Assembly (NCBI GenBank): GCA_030448025.1 | Contig: JAUJNQ010000002.1 | Location: 160,820-222,214, forward strand | Length of the DNA stretch: 61,395 nt | Direction: 5' to 3' | Source: Acidimicrobiales bacterium | GTDB taxonomy: Bacteria; Actinomycetota; Acidimicrobiia; Acidimicrobiales; GCA-2861595 | Shown here: piece after piece, positions 4,342 to 32,953 of the stretch | Layout: each line of letters opens with the position of its first letter | Position numbering within the stretch: the stretch's first letter is position 1 | Position numbers and translations under genes: made by a program | The notes under the pieces: generated by a model | The model's database searches: none | What the model was told of the DNA's origin: nothing | Seen by the model: the letters and a program-made list of their open reading frames with translations, nothing else

Positions 4342-4571
4342 CCGACCCGGTCCATGAGCTGGTCCATCACCCCGTCGAGGAGGCGCCCGACGCGATTGGT
4401 GCGAGCGGCCCAGGCCATGACGAGCAGGGCGATGGCGGCCACTCCGAGCAGCACCAGCGCGTACTCGGCCGAGGCCTGGCCCCGCTGGTCGAGGCCAAAG
4501 CGACGGAGGCGACGACCCCTCGGCGACCAGGACAGGGCAAGGCAGTGCGTCCACACATAGGTGGTGAGCAT
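4338..4571 (-). CDS. flp: Flp-type major pilin precursor
   Basis: A 77-residue protein. After a basic leader (RGRRLRRFGLDQRG) comes QASAEYALVLLGVAAIALLV, which matches the Flp prepilin signature: Gly at -1, Glu at +5, Tyr at +6, then one hydrophobic helix. The ATG at 4571 has AAGGAG five bases upstream, the strongest ribosome binding site in this operon, which suits a highly expressed structural subunit. The order tadC, pilin, tadE is the same as in mycobacterial and Streptomyces tad loci. No prepilin peptidase (TadV) gene is in the window. Confidence 0.85.
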   Translation of the reverse strand: MLTTYVWTHCLALSWSPRGRRLRRFGLDQRGQASAEYALVLLGVAAIALLVMAWAARTNRVGRLLDGVMDQLMDRVG

Positions 4572-4600
4572 GAGTCTCCTTCGGACTTCTTCTTGGTCTC

Positions 4601-30311: not shown

Positions 30312-31007
30312 CTAGCGTGACCCTTCTTGGCGCTCGTCGGAAACGAGCTCGCCGTCGCGCACCACGACTCGCCTCCCGGCCGAAGCGCCGATCTCGTCGT
30401 CATGAGTGACGAGCAACAGCGTCAGGCCGTCGTCATTGAGCTCCCGAAGGAGGTCCATCACTGCTCCAGCGGTCTCCGTATCGAGGTTTCCGGTGGGCTC
30501 GTCGGCCCACACGAGGAGCGGTCGCCCTGCCAGCGCACGGGCCACCGTCACCCGCTGCTGCTCGCCTCCCGACAGCTCGGCGGGACGGTGATCGAGGCGG
30601 TGGCCGAGACCCACCCGCTCCAGGGTCTCGCGAGCCGCTGACCGAGCTGCCTTGGGAGGCTTGCCCGCCAGCAGGAGGGGCAGCTCCACGTTCTCCACGG
30701 CACTGAACACGGGGATCAGGTTGAAGGCCTGGAAGACGAAGCCCATGGCTTGGGCACGATGCCGGGTCCGGCGGGCATCGCTCATCTGGTGGATGCTCTC
30801 TCCACCGATTACGACGGTCCCGGCGTCGATGTCGTCGAGGCCCGACAGGCAGTTGAGCAGGGTGGTCTTGCCCGATCCGGAGGGGCCCATGACGGCGACC
30901 AGCTCACCGGCCGCCACCGACAGGTCGACCTGGCGCAGGGCCTGGACCGCTGAGGCGCCGCTCCTGTACGTCTTGGTGACCCCGGTGGCCTGGAGAAGGG
31001 GGGTCAC
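30312..31007 (-). CDS. ABC transporter ATP-binding protein (LolD/MacB class)
   Basis: A 231-residue ATPase. Walker A is GPSGSGKTTLLN, the signature is LSGGEQQRVTVARAL and Walker B LLVWADEPTGNLD, followed by the switch His in LLVTHDDE. The start chosen is GTG 31007 (VTPLLQATGVTKTY), the usual family start; the frame extends upstream into an inverted repeat with no coding character. It drives the adjacent FtsX-type permease. Confidence 0.9.
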   Translation of the reverse strand: MTPLLQATGVTKTYRSGASAVQALRQVDLSVAAGELVAVMGPSGSGKTTLLNCLSGLDDIDAGTVVIGGESIHQMSDARRTRHRAQAMGFVFQAFNLIPVFSAVENVELPLLLAGKPPKAARSAARETLERVGLGHRLDHRPAELSGGEQQRVTVARALAGRPLLVWADEPTGNLDTETAGAVMDLLRELNDDGLTLLLVTHDDEIGASAGRRVVVRDGELVSDERQEGSR

Positions 31008-31069
31008 ACCCACCGTCCTGGGTGGCGGAGTTGGGCTTCGACGCTCATCGCCGCGCAGGATACGGGATC

Positions 31070-31144
31070 GCCGACGAACTACTTGCATACTTCTTGGACC
31101 TCCACCAGGATGACCCTTGCTACACGTGCAAGTAGTTCGTCGGC
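31070..31144. repeat. 18-bp perfect inverted repeat upstream of the ABC exporter
   Basis: GCCGACGAACTACTTGCA (31070-31087) is exactly mirrored at 31127-31144 across 39 bases. The spacer itself is partly self-complementary (GGACCTCC / GGATGACC). It lies just upstream of the exporter ATPase gene. It could be an operator, a long RNA hairpin or a small transposon-like relic. Confidence 0.7.
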
Positions 31145-31153
31145 AGTCCCTAA

Positions 31154-31173
31154 CTGGCGCTGGTGAACGCCAG
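31154..31173 (-). terminator. Terminator-like hairpin after the PAS sensor gene
   Basis: CTGGCG (31154-31159) and CGCCAG (31168-31173) with an 8-base loop, eight bases beyond the sensor stop codon. There is no clear T run, so this is a modest call. Confidence 0.45.
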
Positions 31174-31180
31174 GTTGGCG

Positions 31181-32946
<1,766 letters not shown>

Positions 32947-32953
<7 letters not shown>

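Follow-up and report, generated by a model that had tools for sequence, protein, structure and literature searches.

A palindromic repeat upstream of an ABC transporter gene in an Acidimicrobiales bacterium is very probably one copy of a miniature inverted-repeat transposable element

Introduction

Bacterial miniature inverted-repeat transposable elements (MITEs), in the part of the source used here, are elements of approximately 50–600 bp with terminal inverted repeats, lacking a transposase, present in many copies and flanked by target duplications, MITEAba12 being an example; they are also called AT-rich (PMC6382973). The Correia/NEMIS elements, in the portion of the source concerned, have 24-bp terminal inverted repeats (PMC2229807). 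IS5-family elements of the IS1031 group, according to an excerpt, favour TNA targets, and their insertion produces a direct repeat of 3 bp (TGA in the example given; PMC12016507). Two other groups are relevant, again as outlined in parts of the respective papers: the mycobacterial MIRU, which are short and mobile, occupy gene junctions and can keep the next gene translated (PMC12548453), and the Rickettsia palindromic elements (RPE), which are approximately 100–150 bp long and can add codons to host genes (PMC10969869, PMC2229807).

Here we analyse an inverted repeat from a 61,395-nucleotide stretch of the genome of an Acidimicrobiales bacterium (the window). The original prediction described it as an 18-base perfect inverted repeat and offered three readings: an operator, a structured leader gating expression of an ABC exporter, or a miniature inverted-repeat transposon. 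It is very probably one copy of a non-autonomous MITE of approximately 90 bp, consisting almost entirely of the arms and the loop. The family is new, the kind of element is known, and its siting is mildly unusual; in the titles and abstract openings of the open-access literature searched there was no earlier description.

Results

Structure of the window copy

The 18-nt arms (31070–31087 and 31127–31144) are exact reverse complements separated by 39 nt, as had been claimed, and if mismatches are allowed they extend to 24 nt each with 92% complementarity around the same 39 nt (Table 1). They are also beyond chance: the window holds two 18-mers with at most three mismatches to the arm, both of which belong to this feature, the mean for shuffled sequence being 0.01. 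The spacer had been called partly self-paired, and some pairing is indeed present, but it is weak, comprising six inner pairs in the minimum-energy fold and five in the centroid. The single-strand folding energy of the whole copy is −48.4 kcal/mol, compared to −21.3 (sd 3.0) for shuffled sequences (z = −9.0; none of 200 shuffles was as good). Its G+C content, 56%, is lower than that of the window, 69%, yet the element is not AT-rich. The location ahead of the exporter was described correctly: the kinase-like gene, the element and the ABC ATPase gene lie in tandem on the minus strand. In the Rfam search of 30900–31300 the best score was 21.9 bits, the gathering score being 137; for eight loci (six with copies of the family and the loci L036 and L037 discussed below) a tRNA was the only match.

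Table 1. Features of the window copy (W) and of its surroundings. Coordinates are positions in the window.
Feature	Coordinates	Strand	Remarks
Element copy W, MITE-like, GGGATC...AGTCCC	31064..31150	.	87 bp; inverted repeat, dispersed homologues and empty site in the congener
Left terminal inverted repeat, 24 nt	31064..31087	+	inverted-repeat search; inner core aligned with seven other copies
Right terminal inverted repeat, 24 nt	31127..31150	+	inverted-repeat search
Spacer (loop), 39 nt, polar, alignable between copies	31088..31126	.	minus strand: GGAGG ahead of ATG
Left flank TAC, presumed decayed 3-bp target duplication	31061..31063	.	two of three bases identical to the right flank
Right flank TAA, presumed decayed 3-bp target duplication	31151..31153	.	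two of three bases identical to the left flank
PAS/histidine-kinase-like gene, upstream neighbour	31181..32953	-	30 nt between its stop codon and the element
ABC transporter ATPase frame (PF00005), 258 aa, MQVVRRRSRILRGDERRSPTPPPRTVGVTPLLQATG...	30312..31088	-	counted from the ATG of the element; start at this codon is putative

Copies in the same genome and in the congener

A 141-bp stretch of the window matches its own genome (G000) twice more, at C4:343061 and C7:84979, and searches with the arm and at the DNA level add a copy at C7:506509-506595 and a half copy at C7:78901. The genome-wide arm search proposed with the original prediction thus did reveal further copies, and the subfamily of the window (subfamily A) comprises four full copies and half of a fifth in this genome (one on C4; three full and one half on C7). 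The sole congener in the genome set (G001) has three copies; in the DNA search of 59 genomes, including the window's own, these two genomes gave the matches. All seven full copies can be aligned across both the arms and the loop, hence the loop moved together with the arms. The arms are more conserved than the loop among the aligned copies; such a difference would not be expected of a repeat that is entirely dead, and this counts against the MITE reading.

The copies adjoin unrelated genes, UbiA-family ctaB, RecO, PFK and MurJ as assigned by Pfam, and apt and guaA by eye (the names guaB, guaA, apt and prs were read from translations, without a domain scan). Judging from the frames, the C4 copy appears to interrupt an ORF (VLVLDDTDK before the element, WVDRRGE after it). 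The two halves have no Pfam match, and in six relatives no intact homologue was matched, the only match being the element itself.

The wider family

A model built from the seven full copies and the half copy (R1; its search filters drop some weak matches) matches six of 397 genomes of the order: G000, G001, G003 (weakly, E = 3.7e-4), G084, G140 and G308. When the loci were read, we counted 13 copies in G308, one in G140 (at recO, where G308 also has one), three in G084 and two in G003. A second model, R2, matches two of 396 genomes of the phylum, G000 and G440. The former contains two copies of a sister subfamily (C9:130001-130105 and C10:179429-179531), and the latter, four more distant elements. 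The subfamilies have in common the inner core AACTACTTG, with single-base exceptions and with AACAACTTG in G003, whereas the outer arms vary between them; the outermost GGG is present in most. The word AACTACTTGC has 45 matches in the six genomes, of which two are outside elements (one in G003, one in G001), the reversed control word having 26. Hence, the family is rare and is present in four GTDB-type families (f1, f13, f28, f79). What looked like an odd inverted repeat thus belongs to a family of mobile elements, the subfamilies of which are spread over no fewer than four families of Actinomycetota.

In G003 (C32; L141:3246-5303), two near-identical, inverted elements with the variant core, 1.9 kb apart, enclose an ORF with an amidase domain, which starts inside one element and has its end at the TGA duplicated by the second; it is not a transposase. 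In G440 (L160:1838-3838, 4411-4600) one element has repeats of GGGAAGCACCGTCCCTGATCT behind it and, at a distance of approximately 570 bp, an ORF resembling by eye an IS256-type transposase.

Scanning contigs for CGAACTACTTG, a gap and CAAGTAGTTCG yielded five stretches, three in the congener, one in a Saccharibacteria contig (L036) and one in Actinomycetota (L037). The last two have outer arms unlike those of the family and, by eye, no TNA duplication, although their arms extend outward past the searched bases (11 of 15 in L037; with a gap, by eye, in L036), and they probably are chance matches. Two direct copies of GCCCGCCCGGGAAATTAA enclose the hairpin in L037:2706-2926 (JACCXE010000137.1), which shares the inner core and not the outer arms of the family; in L036:6140-6260 (JAGOUG010000031.1) a hairpin with GCGAACTACTTGC arms lies between two ORFs and is the sole pair of the core in its genome. 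The viral scan produced 37 core stretches, compared to 89 with a permuted core, and extended arms in none of 36 testable matches, compared to three of 80 controls tested (80 of the 89 as loci). A distribution of the family across more phyla was rejected, given the unlike arms of L036 and L037 and the viral matches being fewer than in the permuted-core control.

Target duplication

All 13 copies in G308 are flanked on both sides by identical TGA or TCA, and the same holds for the single copy in G140, two of three in G084 and one of two in G003. In subfamily A (G000 and G001), two of seven copies have an exact 3-bp duplication (TTA, TAA) and five, the window copy included, do not. By eye, TAA or TTA is duplicated in three of the four G440 elements, and in the sister subfamily the flanks are TGA in one copy and GTA in the other. 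The length between exact duplications is 86–99 bp. The direct TGA...TGA falls outside the palindrome, and a non-palindromic 3-mer repeated in this way suggests that transposition involves staggered cuts 3 bp apart. The flanking duplications, which the original prediction had named as a check, are therefore present in the family as a 3-bp TNA; the window copy itself has TAC and TAA, with two of three bases in agreement.

Positions relative to stop codons

In G308, the target is CTGA for 12 of the 13 copies, and at least 130 open codons precede the duplicated TGA in 11. The Pfam scan covered these 11 ORFs (the eleventh has 103 codons from its first start). Seven of the 13 copies end a Pfam-supported gene, with matches above the cut-off to RecO, PFK, Met_synt_B12, MurJ, DUF3499, DUF305 and PhosphMutase. 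For the other four ORFs, DivIVA was above the cut-off and far from the end, CarboxypepD_reg and Sigma70_r4 were below it, and one had no match.

At least 150 open codons precede the TGA in ten of the 13 copies, compared to 16% of 1438 TGAs; the corresponding P ~ 1e-6 compares counts of open frames to a control derived from a gene caller and thus is not like for like. In a like-for-like test with a rough gene caller, six of 13 copies are at exact stops, with P = 0.004 against all non-coding or stop TGAs (47/349), P = 0.05 against CTGA (27/120), and P = 0.97 against CTGA at most 60 nt behind genes (27/40); the six are an underestimate, as the caller overlooked Pfam-supported genes, e.g. RecO and PhosphMutase. 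Since the target is CTGA and CTGA just behind genes mostly are stops (27/40), no special recognition of stops is needed; the target together with tolerance at gene ends is sufficient, and dedicated stop-codon recognition was rejected. Insertion at a stop would do no harm, as the duplication restores it. The subfamily of the window is sited more loosely: the window copy is 30 nt past a stop and the C4 copy apparently lies within an ORF.

Many copies directly behind a stop codon would also be seen if the family were a REP-like hairpin, retained after stops to stabilise or terminate mRNA and spread by a Y1 (RAYT) rather than a DDE transposase. In 11 of 22 stem pairs, both sides have changed with pairing kept in at least one sequence (across diverged subfamilies), which again is in line with a selected hairpin, but arms that serve as terminal repeats for a common transposase would be expected to change in concert as well. 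Y1 insertion is not known to leave a target duplication, and the exact 3-bp direct duplications fit it poorly; moreover, the window copy has no terminator-like site (none was found in 30900–31300, where an intrinsic terminator was accordingly rejected). We consider a REP-like origin very unlikely.

Empty sites

At three sites, among them that of the window, the other species of the pair lacks the element. At the window site in the congener (C123; flanks 82–86% identical) the element is absent, 15 bases corresponding to 106 in the window, approximately 91 bp fewer. A copy of the congener between genes read as guaB and guaA is missing in the window's genome, where the stop TGA of the first gene appears to overlap the GTG start of the second; conversely, the copy ahead of the UbiA-family gene ctaB (Pfam) is missing in the congener. 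Direct comparison of filled and empty sites gives a duplication of just 0–1 bp at two site pairs.

A stable hairpin upstream of the ATPase gene, with GGAGG and ATG in the minus-strand loop, is in line with an operator or structured leader that acts in cis and is conserved for control of the ABC exporter; yet the orthologous kinase–ABC gap of the congener lacks it and homologous copies lie beside unrelated genes, so that the operator option was not borne out and conserved control of the exporter is highly improbable. The transposon option, on the other hand, was supported by the dispersed copies, the empty orthologous sites and the 3-bp duplications in the family. Chance or a fold-back duplication in the intergenic gap, to which the intergenic location alone would point, is practically negligible given 0.01 arm matches expected per window and dispersed homologues that include the loop.

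Next to the ctaB copy (L020:2800-3009, C7) there is a gap of 100 N with an exact 55-bp repeat on both sides, ending at the edge of the element. This gap may be an assembly fork at the insertion point, perhaps due to strain polymorphism with and without the insertion.

Start of the ABC ATPase gene

On the minus strand, the loop and arm of the window copy read GGAGG-N10-ATG CAA GTA GTT CGT CG..., and this frame continues without a stop into the ABC ATPase, over 258 codons. In the congener, the ATPase frame begins MSVDTQLEDPGTVAVAPLLQATG. The same ATG in the window's genome reaches a stop after 14 codons (the stretch is 50 bases compared to 51 in the congener); the ancestral ATG thus is out of frame, as positions 31000–31055 are one base shorter. 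Other possible starts are two GTG codons just ahead of TPLLQ, and the frame remains open beyond the element, upstream to a GTG at 31274. At ctaB, the ATG of the element is likewise in frame (MQVVRRPSLLTHTRSRVS), the native TTG being retained; at the gene read as guaA in the congener the frame is open, but AAG stands in place of ATG. Three of the seven subfamily-A copies face the downstream gene, and by eye all three are in frame. This orientation is suggestive of start capture, given small numbers and a possible assembly error at the one-base difference.

Judged by sequence, the window copy may have supplied a new start signal to the transporter gene next to it. A structured leader that acts on expression is possible as a by-product of insertion, with GGAGG and the ATG in frame with the ATPase. 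The broader proposal, that the element is a portable translation-start cassette able to capture the next gene (a Shine-Dalgarno-like loop; an arm with ATG and the frame MQVVRR(R/P)S to the element end), which would have replaced the ancestral start of the ATPase and added a second ctaB start upstream of TTG, is tentative and rather doubtful. Start capture, if true, would clearly exemplify how a gene can obtain its start site from a mobile hairpin.

Search for a parent element

In six draft genomes (13 to 470 contigs), no two exact cores were found at the spacing of an insertion sequence. Comparison with plasmids and phages by blastn gave nothing, or short matches with E from 0.09 to 1, a few of them inside IS6-family transposase genes. 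A 23-bp match to an Azospirillum plasmid spans the flank and a part of the arm and was judged to be due to chance.

Discussion

We propose that the terminal repeats of approximately 24 bp, with GGG at the outer end in most subfamilies and the core AACTACTTG, would be bound by a putative transposase provided in trans. Insertion occurs at a TNA target with a 3-bp duplication. With CTGA as the target in the richest subfamily, the copies that survive are mainly on gene stops, where the duplication keeps the stop intact, with the hairpin directly behind it. The window copy presumably landed between the kinase-like and ABC ATPase genes, so that its minus-strand RBS-like site and ATG face, and now are in frame with, the ATPase.

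The window copy is 87 bp long, without a transposase gene, and has 24-nt terminal inverted repeats, dispersed copies with empty sites in relatives and, for the family, target duplications; its 56% G+C departs from the AT-richness of bacterial MITEs, which we take as typical and not defining. As far as the available parts of the sources go, the family resembles MITEAba12 and Correia/NEMIS in size, terminal repeats, lack of a transposase, copy number and target duplications, and differs from them in that it is not AT-rich, that no coresident parent insertion sequence was found, and that its core sequence is unmatched there.

The 3-bp TNA target duplication of the family agrees with the TNA preference and 3-bp repeat of the IS5/IS1031 elements in the excerpt cited (PMC12016507). 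As the IS1031 group duplicates TNA, an IS5/IS1031-like transposase is a candidate. The 17-bp repeat of ISLrh from this group begins with GAACCTG in the same excerpt, whereas the family ends are GGG...GAACTACTTGC.

MIRUs, in the part of their description used, enter start codons and carry an internal ORF coupled to the gene, whereas the G308 elements have long inverted repeats and mostly lie behind stops, and the window copy is 30 nt past one. RPEs, as portrayed in the portions of the sources concerned, often are fused in frame within ORFs; in our family, an N-terminal fusion via the start carried by the element is possible, and, unlike RPEs, C4, the only copy that appears to lie inside an ORF, disrupts it.
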